From positions 1 through 34,577 of IMG/VR virus record IMGVR_UViG_3300010370_000118: DNA of 34,577 bases, one strand, 5' to 3'. The translations under genes and the position numbers were made by a program. The notes under the pieces were generated by a model. It ran no database searches. It was not told the origin of the DNA and saw nothing but the letters and a program-made list of their open reading frames with translations. Source of the DNA: a virus. This document shows positions 2,535 to 12,968 of this stretch, piece by piece; position 1 is the first letter of the stretch; every line of letters begins with the position of its first letter.

Positions 2535-5004
2535 CCAGGGCAATGGCCACCGCGCGACTGCTGGTGAGGCCACGGAAGTGTGTAACGCCTGCCTTGCTGG
2601 CACCAGGCAAGCGAGCCAGCACAGTGGGCCAGCAATTCGCCCAGGCGGTGTCGGCGAGCATTGCCGCAAGCGCAGGAGCGGTGTTGGAGATCAGCATCTG
2701 GCCGTCGTCGGCGCGGATGCCGTGACGACCCAGGACGGCCTGCGCTTCGGTGGCGGTGACCTGTGCATCAGTGGCGCGATGCTGGGCGATGTCCACCAGC
2801 TCCTTAACGGTGCGAGTGACGACACGCTCGCCACCTTCAACGCGCAGCTGGCGATGGAGGATGTGGTCAAAGCACCTCTGCTCATCGGGCACCTCGACCG
2901 ACTGGCTGTAGCTGGTCCAGTCATTGCGCTCGATGAGATCCCACGCCTGCTCACGTGTCGGCACCTCGCGTGAGCTGAGCGACCATGCGCCGGCCAGCAG
3001 CGTGCCGTATTGATCGCCCAGTCGCTGGGAATCAAAGGCATCAGCCGCGGCCTTGATGAAGACGCGCACCGATTCACGGATGACGGGGATCAGCTCAATG
3101 GTGCGCGCCTGCAGGCGTTGGCCGATGGCATCGGTGATATGGCGATCCAGGTCGCGGTCCAGCGATTCCCAATGCGCGGTGCGCTGATCCTTCGGCAGCT
3201 CGCTGGGGTTGCGCAGGGTGAGTTGCGCAAAGCGGCTGCGGTCAGCGCCTTGCTTCAGTGCTGTGGCAATGGATGACATCATGAACATCGATCGGATGGT
3301 GTATCGCTGCGTCTCGCCTTCGGGGCTGCCCTTGAGCGTGTGTGCGCGTGACTCACTGCTGGCAACACGCGCCAGGCCTAGTACGGCCTGCATCCGCTGC
3401 TGGTCATTGCGCTCATTGCTCTCGGCTTCATCGAACACGACCGGCAGCGCATCGGCGCGCAGGGCCTGACGGATGCCGGGCTCAGTGGTGTTGCCCGCAA
3501 CGATCAGGCCCATGTCGCCCAGCAGTGGCGCGACGAAGCGGCCGAGCACCTCAGACTTGCCGGAGCCTGAGCCGGCCGTGAGCCAGATATGCGGTCTCCA
3601 GTCAAGGGCACCACAGATCGGCGCCAAGGTGGCCCAGCCTGTTAGCAACAGGCCTGATGCCGGCACCTCCCAGAGGAAGCGGTTGGCAAGCTCCAGGATC
3701 TCGAATGCCGCGTGATCCGACAGCGGCGACGCACTGCCCGGGCCATGGAGGCGGCTGAGGCGTTGGTAGACATAGCGACTGCCTGGCAGGCCATCACGCA
3801 CTGGCCGGCTGGTGCCGCTGACGATCAGCTGATCACCGAGGTGAAGCACCGGGCTGTCGTTATCCCACCAGGCGCCGCGACCACGGATGCGGTCAGGACT
3901 ATAGACGCCGACTGTGGCCTGCTTGGCATAGAGGCTGCTGGCGGCTGCGGTCCAGTTGACGCCAACGCGGCCGCCGGGATAGAGCGTCTCCCAGTACGGC
4001 AGCTCCGCCAGCGCGCAAAGGTTGGTGCTGGTGTGTGAGGCACGCGATAGGCGGATGACTTGGCCAGTGCTGGCGGGTTGGTAGAAGTAGCTGTCACCGT
4101 CAAAGCCAAGACAGGCGAATGGCTCATCCGCCGCGACTGGCGGCAATGGCGGCGGCGGCTCCACGACAGGCTCCACCACCTGCTCCACTGCCTGCTCAAT
4201 CGGCGGCGTGCGATTGGCCTTGAGGTATGCCGCGGCCTCCACTTCAGACCACTCGGCATCTGCCAGATCCCATCCTTCAGGTGCATCAGCTGGTGGATGC
4301 ACGATGCGCACCTGATCGGCGCCGGCGACCAGCAGCCGCGGCGCCAGCTTGGCCATGGCGTCTTTGCCGACGGCATCAGCATCAGGCCATAACGTGCAAC
4401 GCCGGCCTGCCAGCGGTGACCAGTCGGCCTTGTCGATGGCCTTGCAACCGGATGGCCAGGTGATCGCTACAGCAGATGGGAACAGGCGCTGCGCTGCGTC
4501 TGCGGTCTTCTCACCTTCAACGATGAGCACCGGTGCATCAGGCCGGCTGCGCAGTGCATCGAGGCGATACAGCGGACGCGGTGCTGGTGGCGCCTTCCAA
4601 CGCCATGCCTCGCCATCCCACCAAAGCGGGCGGATCTTCTTGCCCGGGAAGCGGCAGACCAGGAATCCACTGCCATAGGGCCAGACGTGCTCAGCGCCCT
4701 TGGTCGGTGGATCCGGCACCTGTCCGAGGTGCTGCTCAATGCGGCGGCAGGCATCGGCGTACGGCCAGCCGGTGATGCGCATGAGCAGGTCCATCCCGGT
4801 GCCACCACCGCCGGCACCATCACGGCCACCGCATTGGTTGCAGAACCACGATCCGGTGCCATCGCGGTCATCGAAGCGGTAGCGATCGGTGCCACCGCAG
4901 CAGGGGCAGGGCTGATGCTTGTCTGTGAGCTGGTCAGCAGTAAGGCCGCCAAGCTCCGCCAGCAGGTCAGGCCACCTGCCCCGGGTGAGGTCTGTGATGG
5001 TCAT
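2527..5004 (-). CDS. Bifunctional primase-helicase
   Basis: This 825-residue replication protein makes primers and unwinds DNA. Residues 31-58 form a P4-type primase zinc ribbon (CPCC...CNQC, cysteines about 33, 36, 55, 58). TOPRIM-like motifs follow: VLIVEGEKTADA at about 159-170 and WPDADAVGKD at about 206-215. After a P/V/E-rich linker (about 268-295) comes a DUF927-like ATPase/helicase with Walker A AGSGSGKS (about 477-484) and Walker B VVFDEAE (about 522-528). The layout is like phage P4 alpha or D5-type primase-helicases. Its ATG overlaps the upstream ribbon-helix-helix gene as ATGA, and its 3' end runs into the candidate origin. Confidence 0.9.
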   Translation of the reverse strand: MTITDLTRGRWPDLLAELGGLTADQLTDKHQPCPCCGGTDRYRFDDRDGTGSWFCNQCGGRDGAGGGGTGMDLLMRITGWPYADACRRIEQHLGQVPDPPTKGAEHVWPYGSGFLVCRFPGKKIRPLWWDGEAWRWKAPPAPRPLYRLDALRSRPDAPVLIVEGEKTADAAQRLFPSAVAITWPSGCKAIDKADWSPLAGRRCTLWPDADAVGKDAMAKLAPRLLVAGADQVRIVHPPADAPEGWDLADAEWSEVEAAAYLKANRTPPIEQAVEQVVEPVVEPPPPLPPVAADEPFACLGFDGDSYFYQPASTGQVIRLSRASHTSTNLCALAELPYWETLYPGGRVGVNWTAAASSLYAKQATVGVYSPDRIRGRGAWWDNDSPVLHLGDQLIVSGTSRPVRDGLPGSRYVYQRLSRLHGPGSASPLSDHAAFEILELANRFLWEVPASGLLLTGWATLAPICGALDWRPHIWLTAGSGSGKSEVLGRFVAPLLGDMGLIVAGNTTEPGIRQALRADALPVVFDEAESNERNDQQRMQAVLGLARVASSESRAHTLKGSPEGETQRYTIRSMFMMSSIATALKQGADRSRFAQLTLRNPSELPKDQRTAHWESLDRDLDRHITDAIGQRLQARTIELIPVIRESVRVFIKAAADAFDSQRLGDQYGTLLAGAWSLSSREVPTREQAWDLIERNDWTSYSQSVEVPDEQRCFDHILHRQLRVEGGERVVTRTVKELVDIAQHRATDAQVTATEAQAVLGRHGIRADDGQMLISNTAPALAAMLADTAWANCWPTVLARLPGASKAGVTHFRGLTSSRAVAIALDR

Positions 5005-5132
5005 CGCTTGAGTGCCTGCTCCAGCAGTAGGCGGATGGCAGTCGAGCGCGACATGCGATCACCACGCCAGGCATCAAGAAGCCGCAGCAGCTCTGGCGTA
5101 AGGCGGACGGGCGTTGGATGGGCCAGCTTCAT
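5001..5132 (-). CDS. Small ribbon-helix-helix protein, 43 residues
   Basis: MKLAHPTPVRLTPELLRLLD followed by MSRSTAIRLLLEQALKR matches a minimal ribbon-helix-helix repressor: a beta strand (PVRLTP), one helix, a turn, then the second helix. An 85-residue version starting at 5258 is open, but its extra 42 residues are low-complexity and cover two perfect dyads, so I chose the ATG at 5132. It is the first gene of the minus-strand block and probably controls the divergent promoters beside it by binding those dyads. The stop overlaps the primase-helicase ATG as ATGA. Confidence 0.72.
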   Translation of the reverse strand: MKLAHPTPVRLTPELLRLLDAWRGDRMSRSTAIRLLLEQALKR

Positions 5133-5143
5133 GCGTGCGGCGG

Positions 5144-5188
5144 AAGGCTTGCGCACCGTAGCCGCCGCTGCTACTGTCGGCAAGCCTT
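5144..5188. promoter_or_regulatory. 45-bp nested dyad, candidate operator or leader hairpin
   Basis: Outer arms AAGGCTTGC (5144-5152) and GCAAGCCTT (5180-5188) are perfect complements. Inner arms GTAGC (5158-5162) and GCTAC (5170-5174) share the same centre, with 5-base spacers on both sides and a 7-base loop. Such symmetry is unlikely by chance and fits a repressor site, a cruciform, or a hairpin in the leader of the ribbon-helix-helix gene that starts at 5132. Confidence 0.75.
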
Positions 5189-5242
5189 GGCCGTCTTTAG
5201 CCGGGCACCAGTCACGCCACTGGTTTAGACCCACAGACGGCC
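5189..5242. promoter_or_regulatory. 54-bp nested dyad abutting the first
   Basis: Outer arms GGCCGTCT (5189-5196) and AGACGGCC (5235-5242) are perfect complements. Inner arms CCAGT (5208-5212) and ACTGG (5219-5223) are centred on the same point with 11-base spacers on both sides. It starts one base after the first dyad ends, so the two fill most of the divergent gap. A weak plus-strand promoter (TTGCGC at 5149, 17 bases, TACTGT at 5172) would start transcripts near this hairpin; I would not rely on it. Confidence 0.72.
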
Positions 5243-5256
5243 CCGCACTTAACCAC

Positions 5257-5385
5257 ATGAAACAGTTCGAGCTTTTTAGTGAACAGGAGCGGCCTTGCGA
5301 GGTGGCATTGCCGCCTGGTGATGTTGTTTGGGGCTGCGATTACGGCAGCGGCTACTTCCACATCTGGAAAGCATGTTCAACTTGA
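5257..5385 (+). CDS. Small hypothetical protein, 42 residues
   Basis: ATG at 5257 opens a 42-residue frame beginning MKQFELFSEQERPCEVALPP and ending in a TGA just before the helicase start. It contains two cysteines and an aromatic stretch (WGCDYGSGYFHIW). Starts like MKQFELF are common in small phage proteins upstream of replication genes, but I do not recognise this one. It is the first gene of the plus-strand block, directly after the paired dyads. Confidence 0.65.
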   Translation: MKQFELFSEQERPCEVALPPGDVVWGCDYGSGYFHIWKACST

Positions 5386-5392
5386 CATAGCC

Positions 5393-6745
5393 ATGAACCT
5401 TCGCCCCTACCAACAACAACTCATCAGCGACATCCGCCTGCAGTACCAGCTGGGTCATCGCCGTGTTCTGGCGGTGCTGCCCACTGGCGGCGGCAAAACC
5501 GTTTGCTTCAGCTACATCGCCCAGGCTGCTGCCAAGAAAGGCAACCGCATCTGCATCCTCGTGCATCGGCAGGAGCTGCTGGACCAGGCCAGCCGCAGCC
5601 TGACGGTGATGGGTGTGGCGCATGGCCGCATCGCTGCCGGTCGCGGCATGGACCTGAGCCATGCAGTGCAGGTGGCGAGCGTCGCCACGCTGGCGCGGCG
5701 ATTGCATCTGCTGCCGCCGGAGTTCTTCCAGCTGCTGGTGGTGGATGAAGCGCACCACACCAATGCCGGCACATGGGCCAGCGTGGTGGCGCACTTCAAC
5801 ACCGCGCGCCTGCTAGGCGTGACGGCGACACCGATCAGAGGCGACGGCCGTGGCCTTGGTGAGTGGTACCAGTCGATGGTGCAGGGTCCATCAGCGGCAT
5901 GGCTGACAGAGCATGGATTCCTCGCGCCTGCCAAGGTGCTGGCCCCGCCGGGCTTCAACGCATCCGGGCTGCGCAAGCGGATGGGTGACTTCGATAGCCG
6001 CCAGGCGGAGGAGCGTGTCACCGAGATCCACGGCGACTGCTACAGCCACTACTGCAAGCACCTCAGTGGGCAGACTGCAATTGCGTTCTGCTGCAGCGTG
6101 GCCCACGCAGAGGCGGTAGCGGATCTGTTCAAGCGGCAGGGTATCGCCGCGGCCAGCATTGACGGCAGCATGGACGCCACCACCAGGCGCCAGCTATTGG
6201 AGGATCTTGGTGCCGGCCGGCTGAAGGTGCTGACCAGCTGCGCATTGATCGGTGAAGGCGTGGATGTCCCGAGCGTCGGTGGCTGCATCCTGCTGCGGCC
6301 AACGCAATCAGTCGGCCTGCACCTGCAGATGATCGGCCGGTGCCTGCGGCCACAGGATGGCAAGCGCGCGGTGATCCTGGATCACGTCGGCAACACGCTG
6401 CGGCTAGGCCACCACCTGGAGGATCGGGACTGGACGCTGGAGGGCATCAAGAAGCAGGATCGCGAGAAGGCACCGAGCGTCAAGGTGTGCCCGGTGTGCT
6501 TTGCGGCAATGGCCAGCACTGCGCAAGCGTGCGGCGACTGCGGCCACGAGTTCCGCGCGCAGGAGCGTGAGCTGATGGTGGTGCCGGGTGAGCTGCAGGA
6601 GGTGACGGCACGCGCACGCAAGCGTGAGCAGGGCGGCGCCAATAGCCTCGAGGCCCTCCGCCAGCTGGCGCAGCAGCGCGGCTACAAGCGCGGATGGGCG
6701 GAACGGGTGTATCAGGCAAGATTGGCGAAGCGGTATGGCATTTGA
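5393..6745 (+). CDS. SF2 DEAH-box helicase with C-terminal zinc ribbon
   Basis: This 450-residue ATP-dependent helicase resembles UvsW/RadD-type SF2 enzymes. It shows an N-terminal Q-like motif (LRPYQQQ), Walker A PTGGGKT (30-36), DEAH (118-121), TATP (144-147), motif V region GEGVDVP (288-294) and motif VI QMIGRCLRP (312-320). A four-cysteine ribbon follows (C366, C369, C380, C383), then a basic helical tail. The ATG at 5393 gives the classic start MNLRPYQQQL; the frame stays open 38 codons further upstream but those residues overlap the small gene. It probably acts in fork remodelling or recombination-dependent replication, in line with the recombinase genes downstream. Confidence 0.92.
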   Translation: MNLRPYQQQLISDIRLQYQLGHRRVLAVLPTGGGKTVCFSYIAQAAAKKGNRICILVHRQELLDQASRSLTVMGVAHGRIAAGRGMDLSHAVQVASVATLARRLHLLPPEFFQLLVVDEAHHTNAGTWASVVAHFNTARLLGVTATPIRGDGRGLGEWYQSMVQGPSAAWLTEHGFLAPAKVLAPPGFNASGLRKRMGDFDSRQAEERVTEIHGDCYSHYCKHLSGQTAIAFCCSVAHAEAVADLFKRQGIAAASIDGSMDATTRRQLLEDLGAGRLKVLTSCALIGEGVDVPSVGGCILLRPTQSVGLHLQMIGRCLRPQDGKRAVILDHVGNTLRLGHHLEDRDWTLEGIKKQDREKAPSVKVCPVCFAAMASTAQACGDCGHEFRAQERELMVVPGELQEVTARARKREQGGANSLEALRQLAQQRGYKRGWAERVYQARLAKRYGI

Positions 6746-6755
6746 CCGAGCAGGG

Positions 6756-6783
6756 TTGACCATGGCGGAGCATGGTGTATGAT
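6756..6783 (+). promoter_or_regulatory. Sigma-70-type promoter P1
   Basis: TTGACC (6756-6761) and TATGAT (6778-6783) are 16 bases apart, a good match to the bacterial vegetative consensus. It lies just after the helicase stop and directs the 60-residue protein, methyltransferase-like and nuclease genes. Confidence 0.75.
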
Positions 6784-6785
6784 TT

Positions 6786-6812
6786 GGGGACAGCGGACGA
6801 GATCCGCGCCCC
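6786..6812 (+). promoter_or_regulatory. Hairpin leader of P1
   Basis: GGGG (6786-6789) pairs with CCCC (6809-6812), and GCGGA (6793-6797) pairs with TCCGC (6803-6807) around a CGAGA loop. The hairpin would lie at the extreme 5' end of the transcript. The bases that follow, up to the ATG at 6825, closely match those after the P2 hairpin (CCCCAA, CC, GAGA, CCATGACC). Confidence 0.65.
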
Positions 6813-6824
6813 AACCTGAGAACC

Positions 6825-7007
6825 ATGACCCTCCAGCAAGTCCTCCAAGCCAAAGCCGCCGAGAAAGCCGCCAAAGATGCCTTTTTTGCAGCCACTGGCG
6901 CCGCCGGCAGCAAGATGACCGCCAAGCAGCGCAAGCTGCAGGCTGCCATGATCGCCGCCACTCAAGCCCGCCAAGCTGCGATGACCGCCTATGCCGCTGC
7001 GCTCTGA
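6825..7007 (+). CDS. Small alanine/lysine-rich helical protein, 60 residues
   Basis: An almost wholly helical protein rich in Ala, Lys and Gln (MTLQQVLQAKAAEKAAKDAF...), without a recognised family. It might bind nucleic acid or form a small coiled coil; nothing decides this. It is the first gene after promoter P1 and its stop is followed at once by the GTG of the methyltransferase-like gene. Confidence 0.7.
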   Translation: MTLQQVLQAKAAEKAAKDAFFAATGAAGSKMTAKQRKLQAAMIAATQARQAAMTAYAAAL

Positions 7008-7601
7008 GTGCGCGTCCTCATTGCCTGCGAATACAGCGCCCGCGTCCGCGATGCATTTCGCAGGCGCGGGCATGACGCATGGAGCTGCGACCTGTTGGAG
7101 TGCGAAGGCGATCCGCGCTGGCATTTGCAGCAACCGGTGGAGCAGGTGCTGGTCGATGGATGGGATCTGATGGTGGCGCACCCGCCATGCACGCATCTCG
7201 CGGTCAGCGGCTCGCGCCACTTCCACCGCAAGCAACAGGAGCAGGCCGAAGCGCTGGACTTCGTGCGCCTGCTGATGGAGGCGCCAATAGATAGGTGGTG
7301 CATTGAGAACCCGATCAGCGTGATCAGCTCTGCCATTGCCCCCCCTGATCAAATCATCCAGCCGTGGCAGTTCGGGCATGGTGAGACAAAGGCGACGTGT
7401 TTATGGCTGAAGAACCTGCCGAAGCTCAAGCCGACGCAAGTGGTTGATGGGCGCGATGCGCGCGTGCATCGGATGCCACCGGGCCCAGACCGCTGGAAAG
7501 AGCGCAGCCGCACCTATCAAGGCATTGCCGACGCCATGGCCCAGCAGTGGGGCGCGACTACGCTGCCGACGGCGGTTGAGCAGTTAGCGCTTGGCATCTG
7601 A
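7008..7601 (+). CDS. DNA cytosine methyltransferase-like protein
   Basis: This 197-residue protein resembles short phage proteins annotated as C5-cytosine methyltransferases. The N-terminus IACEYSARVRDAF may be the cofactor-binding motif, HPPCTHL (about 58-64) holds the PPC catalytic motif with its cysteine, and IENP (about 99-102) is the ENV-like motif. Conserved IQPWQFGH and TCLWLK follow. It lacks room for a full target recognition domain, so activity or specificity may differ from Dcm-type enzymes. It starts at a GTG placed directly after the preceding stop. It may protect phage DNA from host restriction or mark it. Confidence 0.75.
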   Translation: MRVLIACEYSARVRDAFRRRGHDAWSCDLLECEGDPRWHLQQPVEQVLVDGWDLMVAHPPCTHLAVSGSRHFHRKQQEQAEALDFVRLLMEAPIDRWCIENPISVISSAIAPPDQIIQPWQFGHGETKATCLWLKNLPKLKPTQVVDGRDARVHRMPPGPDRWKERSRTYQGIADAMAQQWGATTLPTAVEQLALGI

Positions 7602-7938
7602 GCAAACCATCCAGCAGCAGATCCGCCTCCAGTGCTCCAGAGGCCCGGTGCGCCTGCATCGCAACAACACCGGCACGCTCCTCGACCGCAATGGCCGGCC
7701 GGTGCAGTTCGGCCTGGCGAAGGGCAGCGCAGACCTGATCGGCTGGACCACGCGCACGATCACACCAGACATGGTGGGTCAGCGCATTGCGGTATTCACC
7801 AGCATCGAAGTGAAGACCGCTACGGGCCGGTTGCGGCCAGAGCAGCGGCAGTGGATGGAGGCTGTGCAGGCTGCTGGTGGCATCGCTGGCGTCGCCCGCA
7901 GCATTGAGGACGCAGCACGGTTGACAGGGGCTGCATAG
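7591..7938 (+). CDS. VRR-NUC domain nuclease
   Basis: This 115-residue protein matches the VRR-NUC family of PD-(D/E)XK nucleases: FGLAKGSADLIG (catalytic Asp about 48), SIEVKTATGRLRPEQ (Glu about 73, Lys about 75, Gln about 85) and the GG.AGVARS ending. Phage stand-alone VRR-NUC proteins are thought to act as structure-specific, Holliday-junction-type nucleases. A stop lies just upstream in frame and no ATG or GTG precedes the domain, so a TTG at 7591 is the likely start, overlapping the preceding gene by 11 bases. Promoter P2 lies inside its 3' end. Confidence 0.88.
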   Translation: MASEQTIQQQIRLQCSRGPVRLHRNNTGTLLDRNGRPVQFGLAKGSADLIGWTTRTITPDMVGQRIAVFTSIEVKTATGRLRPEQRQWMEAVQAAGGIAGVARSIEDAARLTGAA

Positions 7939-7948
7939 GGTGTAGGAT
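7921..7948 (+). promoter_or_regulatory. Sigma-70-type promoter P2
   Basis: A consensus TTGACA (7921-7926) lies 16 bases before TAGGAT (7943-7948), the same spacing as P1. It overlaps the last codons of the nuclease gene and precedes the recombination operon. Confidence 0.75.
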
Positions 7949-7956
7949 GGATGCAA

Positions 7957-7970
7957 GCCGGGAGACCGGC
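7957..7970 (+). promoter_or_regulatory. Hairpin leader of P2 with a GNRA tetraloop
   Basis: GCCGG (7957-7961) and CCGGC (7966-7970) close a GAGA loop, a GNRA tetraloop in RNA. The hairpin is followed by ACCCCAAACC and GAGAGCC ahead of the ATG at 7988, nearly the same as after the P1 hairpin. Confidence 0.65.
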
Positions 7971-7987
7971 ACCCCAAACCGAGAGCC

Positions 7988-8173
7988 ATGACCACCACGA
8001 CCCTTGCACTGCTGGCAGCGCTGCTGCTGCTGCCGGTGCTGATCATCCTCTGGGCCACCGAAAGCACTGAGCAGCGCGCACGACGCCTGCGCAGCTACGG
8101 ATGGAGCCAGCGCCGCATTGCGGAGCACATGAACATCACCACCTATCGCGTCCGCCGGGCGCTGGCGGCATGA
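7988..8173 (+). CDS. Small membrane-anchored helix-turn-helix protein, 61 residues
   Basis: A hydrophobic N-terminal segment (about residues 5-23, ALLAALLLLPVLIILW) is followed by a basic stretch and a sequence that reads as a helix-turn-helix: GWSQRRIAEHMNITTYRVRRAL (about 38-59). A DNA-binding motif on a membrane anchor is unusual for a phage protein. It is the first gene after promoter P2 and overlaps the next small membrane gene as ATGA. The function is unknown. Confidence 0.72.
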   Translation: MTTTTLALLAALLLLPVLIILWATESTEQRARRLRSYGWSQRRIAEHMNITTYRVRRALAA

Positions 8174-12074: not shown

Positions 12075-12099
12075 TGGCCGCGGCCAGCACATGCCGCGG
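12070..12099 (+). promoter_or_regulatory. TATAAT element with GC hairpin leader before the sigma gene
   Basis: A perfect TATAAT (12070-12075) is followed by CCGCGG at 12078-12083 and again at 12094-12099. They can pair around a 10-base loop, and the first copy lies in a 10-bp palindrome (12076-12085). No good -35 is visible. The layout (-10, then at once a hairpin, then the start codon) repeats that of P1 and P2. The hairpin ends at the GTG start and could also limit translation. Confidence 0.55.
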
Positions 12100-12968
12100 T
12101 GGATAGCGTCAAGGATTACCTATCAGAGATCGGACGTTTCCCGCTGCTGAGCGGTGAGCAAGAAATCCAGCTGTCACGGCAAGTGGCGCGGATGCGGGAG
12201 CTGCAGACACTGCCAGGTGAGCGCACGAAGGTTGAGCAGCGCACGATCAAGCGCGGGCAGCGTGCGCTTGAAACCATCATGAACTGCAACCTGCGACTGG
12301 TGGTGCATATCGCAAAGCGCTACACCAGCCGGCTCAAGTGCAACAGCATGGACATGATGGACCTCATCCAAGAGGGTTGCATCGGCCTGCATCGCGCGGC
12401 TGAACTTTTTGATGGCACCAAGGGCTACAAGTTCTCCACTTACGCGTACTGGTGGATTCGACAGGCGATCACCAGGGCGATTGATACAAAGGAGCGCCTG
12501 ATCCGAGTACCGCAGCATACGCTGGATCTGGTCTACAAAGCAGCCAAGCTGCAACGCGAGCACATGCAGCAGCATGGCGAGCCGATCGCAACAGCAGCAT
12601 TGGCAGCTGAGATGAATATCACGATTAATGAGCTGCAGATGATTATGCAGCGCAATATCCCGCATGGCAGCCTTGATCAACTGACGCATGATGATGGGTC
12701 GCCAATTCTTGACCTAATTGCAGCCAATGATCCAGAGATTGATGAGGCGCTATCGTCAGAATATGGTGAGCAGCTGCAGCTGGCTTTTTTTCGTCTAGAT
12801 GAGGTCGATAGGCATATTGTCTCTTCGTATCATGGCCTTAAAGGACCGAAACAAACGCAAACAAACATTGCCAAGGAACTTGGGATTACGCGAAGCAGGG
12901 TAGGACAGCGCCATGACTGCGCTCTCCGTCGCATGAGATTGATGATTACCGCTCAACAATGCGCTTAG
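12099..12968 (+). CDS. RNA polymerase sigma factor, RpoD-like (group 2 type)
   Basis: This 289-residue sigma-70 protein has a region 1.2-like start (DSVKDYLSEIGRFPLLSGEQ), region 2 with NLRLVVHIAKRY (64-75), MDLIQEGCIGLHRA (87-100) and YKFSTYAYWWIRQAI (110-124), region 3 with RLIRVPQH, and region 4 with a helix-turn-helix at about 254-275 (QTNIAKELGITRSRVGQ). It lacks region 1.1, like alternative cyanobacterial group 2 factors, to which the N-terminus looks similar from memory. It would direct host polymerase to phage or altered host promoters. Upstream in frame a stop precedes the GTG at 12099, so that start is forced. The second half is visibly less GC-rich than its neighbours. Confidence 0.93.
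   Translation: MDSVKDYLSEIGRFPLLSGEQEIQLSRQVARMRELQTLPGERTKVEQRTIKRGQRALETIMNCNLRLVVHIAKRYTSRLKCNSMDMMDLIQEGCIGLHRAAELFDGTKGYKFSTYAYWWIRQAITRAIDTKERLIRVPQHTLDLVYKAAKLQREHMQQHGEPIATAALAAEMNITINELQMIMQRNIPHGSLDQLTHDDGSPILDLIAANDPEIDEALSSEYGEQLQLAFFRLDEVDRHIVSSYHGLKGPKQTQTNIAKELGITRSRVGQRHDCALRRMRLMITAQQCA

Follow-up and report, generated by a model that had tools for sequence, protein, structure and literature searches.

The stretch of viral DNA analysed here (34,577 bases, referred to as the window) has as its nearest annotated DNA relatives the Synechococcus phages S-H1, S-LBS1 and S-CBS1. Its plus strand is a replication arm that includes an exonuclease VIII-like protein, a RecT-like protein and an SSB, and its minus strand encodes the endolysin, tape measure and terminase. 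Two promoters, P1 and P2, lie within the plus arm, ahead of proteins of 60 and 61 amino acids, respectively. P1 is preceded by a helicase gene of the replication arm (5279-6745, +). The 60-aa protein behind P1 (6825-7007, +), for which no family match was found in Pfam or PHROGs, is followed by a DNA methyltransferase (7008-7601, +; PHROG 757, E 4e-72) and by a VRR-NUC nuclease (7591-7938, +; PF08774) whose 3' end overlaps the -35 element of P2. The 61-aa protein behind P2 (7988-8173, +) has a hydrophobic N-terminus and a weak helix-turn-helix match under the curated cut-off. The phage also encodes a sigma-70-family factor (12099-12968) at the end of the plus arm, adjoining the minus strand late genes; its regions 1.2, 2 and 4 score over the Pfam cut-offs and region 3 falls slightly under. 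A small repressor-like ORF (phrog_4738; 5001-5258, -) is divergent from the helicase gene.

The two promoters are built alike. P1 (6756-6783, +) consists of a -35 element TTGACC (6756-6761), a 16-nt spacer and a -10 element TATGAT (6778-6783); a hairpin with stem GCGGA/TCCGC and loop CGAGA (6793-6807) begins 9 nt after the -10 element and is followed by the start-associated sequence CCCCAACCTGAGAACC with the ATG (6809-6827). P2 (7921-7948, +) has TTGACA (7921-7926), again a 16-nt spacer, and TAGGAT (7943-7948), then a hairpin with stem GCCGG/CCGGC and loop GAGA (7957-7970) beginning 8 nt after the -10 element, and CCCCAAACCGAGAGCC with the ATG (7972-7990). The initial annotation had noted the equal spacing, a GC hairpin within about 10 bases of each promoter and a nearly identical run CCCCAA..CC.GAGA.CC ahead of the start codon, and all three hold. 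No other sigma-70-like site is found between 5500 and 9500 (2 versus a shuffle mean of 0.5); the family promoter pattern likewise matches nowhere in the window except at P1 and P2, each with 0 mismatches (at 3 mismatches the pattern is loose, with 0.47 window matches expected by chance), and their start runs are the only window matches to CCCCAACCCGAGAACCATG at up to 3 mismatches (0.01 in shuffles). A covariance model of the cassette, built from 29 rows to which both window copies belong, recovers both at E about 1e-12, and no other hit in the window falls under E 0.49. The GAGA-type loop that had been proposed as a common feature does not generalize: of the two, P2 alone has an exact GAGA tetraloop, the loop of P1 being CGAGA, and the loops of relatives vary freely (ACAA, GCAA, ACGAC, AAGAC, CAAGC, CAACCAGT and AACCG among them). 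The view that the two promoters drive two operons is likewise not supported, because the -35 element of P2 lies within the 3' end of the VRR-NUC gene and a simple scan finds no terminator between P1 and P2, its sole call being a stem within P1's own promoter. Intrinsic terminators, that is a GC stem with a T-run, were not called at either leader hairpin. An operator-like palindrome between the P1 hexamers (ACCATG...CATGGT) was dropped as a candidate element, as it is not kept in relatives.

Folded singly, the leaders are only moderately unusual (z -1.67 for P1, -2.30 for P2), so that the case rests on comparison; Rfam gives 0 matches in the window and 0 in seven related loci. The modest z-scores of the individual leaders would be in keeping with two GC-rich leaders of one genome being alike by chance, an explanation that is refuted by the comparison described below (dozens of contigs, a fixed position and covariation) and whose probability we take to be practically nil.

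Judged by sequence comparison, P1 and P2 each represent a promoter-leader cassette that recurs in many uncultured cyanosiphovirus relatives. Searches of IMG/VR by hairpin, by start sequence and by promoter alone yielded overlapping sets of cyanophage-like contigs, the first two bringing in many chance matches too. Among 30 records of our own choosing, the promoter pattern at up to 2 mismatches is found in 22, with one match in the reversed-pattern control, and the covariance-model search of related phages suggested in the initial annotation finds the leader in 20 at E<=0.1, with 1 to 3 strong matches (E below 1e-9) per record. The position of the hairpin was assessed in a set collected blind to the leader, which comprises the matches listed by the promoter-only scan of IMG/VR (80 loci plus L255-L278) and is a sample of that database, not a census. 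Among these matches, 54 of 60 distinct 36-nt leaders contain a stem scoring at least 5, and in 49 of the 60 the stem starts exactly 8-9 nt after the -10 element; in 300 dinucleotide shuffles the corresponding means are 8.4 (maximum 17) and 1.05 (maximum 5). Restricting the count to loci among the matches listed that were first fetched by the promoter-only scan, a choice that works against the known stem classes, leaves 41 of 47 with a stem of at least 5 and 36 of 47 with the stem at 8-9 nt. If hairpin-fetched loci are included, 62 of 68 leaders have a stem, with 15 stems in all; the leader-blind figures (54/60, 13 stems) are the cleaner ones.

The leader-blind matches listed contain 13 different stem sequences, mostly of 5-7 bp. 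This diversity bears on the proposal that a repressor binds the inverted repeats as operators in the DNA. The repeats do adjoin promoters, and a repressor-like ORF is near (5001-5258, phrog_4738); however, 13 different stem sequences among the matches listed are hard to square with the site of one protein, and the GGAGGC/GCTTCC class depends on a G-U pair, a position that in a DNA dyad would be mismatched. We therefore regard DNA operators as highly improbable.

The stems differ in sequence in a manner that preserves pairing. In an alignment of 29 copies, picked by us from 104 rows as hairpin-bearing and with L189 and L276 misaligned in the stem, 95.9% of stem cells are paired versus 80.1% after shuffling, and 20 cells are altered on both sides versus 7.0 in shuffles; slid versions of the stem pair at 25-45%. 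Three of the five stem pairs change on both sides, one of them being A-U in 12 copies, C-G in 12 and G-C in 4, and RNAalifold, unaided, predicts the identical five-pair hairpin. The initial annotation had surmised that structure rather than sequence is kept, and this is borne out by the 13 stems at one position among the matches listed, by the compensation at three of five pairs and by the same gene occurring with different hairpins. Relatives present the opposite of bases kept without their pairing: the pairing is kept while the letters change. As far as the aligned sequences tell, what is conserved of the hairpin is its shape and its place, whereas the stem has been swapped or has undergone compensated changes, and a fixed position and shape with variable letters suggests that the shape itself may be needed to express these small genes. 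An outer GGGG/CCCC stem is left out of this claim (56.9% of its cells are paired, and it is missing in the GCCGG class). Separately, two loci (L210 11629-11681 and L271 3945-3997) have near-identical flanks with swapped stems, CGCC/GGCG versus CGGGA/TCCCG, the structure being kept and the letters changed.

A fixed distance from the promoter would also suit an event on the nascent RNA, and the hairpin might act on RNA polymerase in early elongation, by pausing it, by affecting its escape from the promoter or by serving in antitermination as HK022 put does. The put RNA works through a specific sequence and structure, unlike the present leaders, in which stem and loop letters vary; moreover, according to the simple scan the stretch between P1 and P2 offers no terminators to read through. 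An action on the elongating polymerase is in our estimate very unlikely.

The cassette stands in front of many different genes. A crude grouping of the proteins behind it, which counts loci and in which some contigs entered twice, yields 31 clusters, or about 30 groups once the chance hit L146 is discounted; 11 clusters have more than one stem sequence. From this grouping, and from the openness folding described below, chance and duplicate hits were omitted (L044, L267, L118, L220:7616, L094:425, L217:575, L271:3945, L210:11629, L246:7999-8040 and L258:3008), and the chance hits L146 and L240 were retained. Relatives of the P1 gene have leaders with GCAGGC-AAG-GCCTGC, GGGGTCC-CAAAC-GGATTCC or GCGG-ACGAGAG-CCGC; by our reading one of them (L006) has the hairpin TCAGGAG-GCAG-CTCCTGA, and another (L016) has no obvious leader hairpin. 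In most of 24 loci examined, the methyltransferase is preceded by neither the family promoter nor the P1 gene. Relatives of the P2 gene were picked by protein alone (80 fetched, 77 with a readable start, 49 distinct upstream regions). Sixteen of the 49 upstream regions were judged to have the family promoter, the automatic promoter tag being too loose (the tags of L415, L419, L429 and L443 were judged spurious), and 15 of these 16 have a stem of at least 5. The L366 protein is 100% identical to the P2 protein of the window, yet its leader is wholly different. Around 300-401 of L366 there is possibly a pairing GGGGGC ... GCCCCC with a 15-nt loop.

This exchange of leaders lends itself to the explanation that the cassette serves chiefly for recombination or shuffling, the role proposed for the T4 PeSLs, with the hairpin a by-product of shared ends. 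One cassette is found before many unrelated small genes, different stems before the same gene, and a protein identical to the P2 protein of the window has another leader in L366. However, shuffling alone would keep neither the pairing under letter change nor the exact distance from the -10 element, and we consider shuffling as the main role quite unlikely.

Isolated phages gave little. A blastn search of them with two cassette copies returned short, chance-level matches only, and S-H1, S-LBS1 and S-CBS1 contain no match to the promoter pattern at up to 2 mismatches. At a looser setting, S-H1 (L002 12877-12948) has a diverged cassette with the promoter TTGCAC-16-CATACT at 12877-12904, followed 8 nt after the -10 element by GCGGG-GCACGAG-CCCGC; its folding z is only -0.92, and the same setting gave ten further places in S-H1, mostly chance-like. 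Covariance model R1 finds a weak partial match in S-H1, at another place than the diverged cassette. Elsewhere in S-H1 (L002 12553-12620), an annotated start at 12579 seemingly lies within a leader that bears the hairpin GCAGGC-GATTG-GCCTGC, and the true start may be farther downstream.

Not every member has all parts of the cassette. Hairpin-less leaders occur (L301, L303, L306, L175 and L181, with about 26 nt from the -10 element to the ATG), and the hairpin is therefore not indispensable; some hairpin leaders are without the start-associated sequence, ending for example in TCCCACCCATG. Where present, this sequence is C/A-rich and takes the form CCCCAA.CC.GAGA.CC-ATG. A further class of leaders with the same promoter (L298-L300, L302, L304 and L305) has CGAGGG..CCCTCG or CGAGCGG..CCGTTCG and then a long conserved leader (GCGGAACCGGGTACACGACGCGTCACC...). 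A host origin of the start sequence was considered and rejected: a genome scan with 18 fixed letters found 17 stretches, near the chance expectation (about 20 by our own estimate). One of these stretches lies in a Prochlorococcaceae MAG (L291 3540-3610), where CACCCCAACCCGAGACCCATG closes the rplA leader behind a possible hairpin, possibly by chance; since this MAG is the only one of 101 genomes of its family with the match, a host-wide leader is not supported.

The same phages harbor a second structured element before operon-internal genes, linked to the stop codon of the gene upstream. It reads CACGCGGC..GCCGG-A-GCCGCACCCAATC-CGGC and was found in 85 copies in 85 loci (e.g., L178 1554-1582) with a search pattern that fixed stem 1 and left stem 2 free; in 82 of the 85 a stop codon lies at most 8 nt upstream. 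The element is a candidate H-type pseudoknot. Stem 2 occurs in the compensated versions GCCAG/CTGGC, GCTGG/CCAGC and CCGGG/CCCGG, and in the S-H1 copy (L002 3006 on) stem 1 is ACGGC/GCCGT. A loose pseudoknot scan gave 160 hits versus 87 in the reversed sequence, so that weight can be given only to the forms that recur (88, 15 and 10 copies). The element has no Rfam match and is absent from the window; by our reading, it occurs in 18 of the 49 distinct upstream regions of the P2-gene relatives.

The start sequence invites the explanation of a shared post-transcriptional switch, in which a phage or host protein or a small RNA would recognise the hairpin shape together with CCCCAA.CC.GAGA, the small genes being switched together. 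The sequence is far more conserved across unrelated genes than a weak ribosome-binding site requires, it is also found behind the different structured element in operons, and T4 gp32 and gp43 illustrate that leader structures of phages can be protein targets (PMC3014915). On the other hand, stem and loop letters vary widely, unlike those of the T4 operators, some members are without the hairpin or without the start sequence, and the analysis turned up no candidate binding protein. We consider a common switch unlikely.

The reading that we favour, with about even confidence, is that P1 and P2 are copies of a mobile gene-start cassette of cyanosiphoviruses, whose 5' hairpin would hinder end-dependent decay and leave the start free, giving a standard expression of the small gene behind it. 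The cassette comprises a sigma-70-type promoter with a conserved spacer, a GC-rich hairpin predicted to begin at about +3 to +4 of the RNA, and a presumably unstructured C/A-rich start sequence. Transcription usually starts 7 nt after the -10 element. Host RNA polymerase would start 6-7 nt after it, and the mRNA would begin with 2-3 unpaired nucleotides, followed by the hairpin: assuming starts at A6790 and A7955, the predicted distance of the hairpin from the 5' end of the mRNA is 3 nt for P1 and 2 nt for P2. With the start placed 7 nt after the -10 element, both window leaders, and most of those printed among the 81 folded, have 2-3 free nucleotides, the hairpin and about 20 open nucleotides up to the AUG. 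The 81 were taken from 95 distinct leaders, the remainder being too short ahead of the start sequence. In 69 of the 81, the 19 nt up to and including the ATG are less open once the 5' part is shuffled; the average gain of the native leaders is small (mean 0.738 versus 0.677). In the folding model, such an arrangement agrees with shielding of the 5' end against end-dependent decay and with a free start site, and the suggestions of the initial annotation, mRNA 5'-end protection or shared translational control, would be compatible with it. The hairpin may hinder 5'-end-dependent decay and may also keep the next 20 nt from pairing elsewhere, as a form of start-site insulation; the small gene would thereby be expressed in a standard way, and the cassette itself was probably moved by recombination. 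The pyrophosphohydrolase of Bacillus is described as preferring single-stranded 5' ends (PMC3997798). Cyanobacteria are reported to possess RNase E as well as RNase J, a 5'-3' nuclease, and to be without close RppH homologues, so that the logic of decay in E. coli may not carry over (PMC10989914). Protection of the 5' end is also not the whole story, because the promoterless operon-internal element precedes the same start sequence.

This second arrangement allows a bolder reading, which we find rather unlikely, namely a universal gene-start module in which the promoter-borne 5' hairpin and the operon-internal pseudoknot are interchangeable before the same gene and both selected on shape; together they would form a phage-wide post-transcriptional system for small accessory genes, one that the hosts do not share. 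The cassettes vary in their hairpin letters but hardly in promoter, position or start sequence, and so form a natural series with which the role of a 5' hairpin in a cyanobacterial host could be addressed directly. They also mark the starts of many small unknown cyanosiphovirus genes and might supply exchangeable 5' leaders for expressing genes in cyanobacteria.

A search of mainly open-access literature found no description of the cassette in cyanophages, and the main text of the S-LBS1 paper mentions neither hairpin, nor stem-loop, nor leader. The 5' stabilising stem-loops of ompA, papA and aprE are similar in that a hairpin is predicted a few nucleotides from the mRNA 5' end; however, these are described for single host genes (PMC3997798), whereas here the cassette is phage-wide and stabilisation is putative. 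The operators of T4 genes 32 and 43 are also structures in phage leader RNA upstream of the start codon but, as described, serve autoregulation and depend on particular structures or loop letters (PMC3014915); the cyanophage leaders are not known to bind a protein. Halovirus HF2 has repeated intergenic sequences with promoters; it differs in being an archaeal virus with AT-rich motifs, and the opening of the abstract does not mention a hairpin leader (PMC8707807).

The closest known kinds are the T4 PeSL cassettes and the SAS/ESAS of mycobacteriophages, neither of whose definitions the cyanophage cassette matches in full. T4-like phages have PeSL (promoter early stem-loop) cassettes, repeated short units of promoter and stem-loop that have been tied to gene shuffling (PMC4503421). 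Repeated cassettes before exchangeable genes are found here too, with about 30 downstream protein groups. The title of the cited paper speaks of promoter-terminator motifs, whereas the cyanophage stem-loop lies within the leader just past the predicted transcript start; the stem comes after the -10 element and is followed by ACCCCAA, with no T-run. In Cluster K mycobacteriophages, start-associated sequences are described, about half of them with inverted repeats, and their role is given as unknown (PMC3203893). The likeness lies in a conserved sequence that immediately precedes the start codons of many genes unrelated to one another and is itself often preceded by an inverted repeat (PMC12699233). 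Comparison of the two consensus sequences sets the SAS consensus GGGATAGGAGCCC apart from the cyanophage CCCCAA.CC.GAGA.CC. ESAS are described as imperfect 17-bp inverted repeats conserved in sequence within a genome, unlike the cyanophage stems, which are mostly of 5-7 bp with 13 sequences among the matches listed. Compared with SAS and ESAS, the cyanophage cassette is thus distinguished by stems that are short, variable in sequence, and placed at a fixed distance from the promoter.
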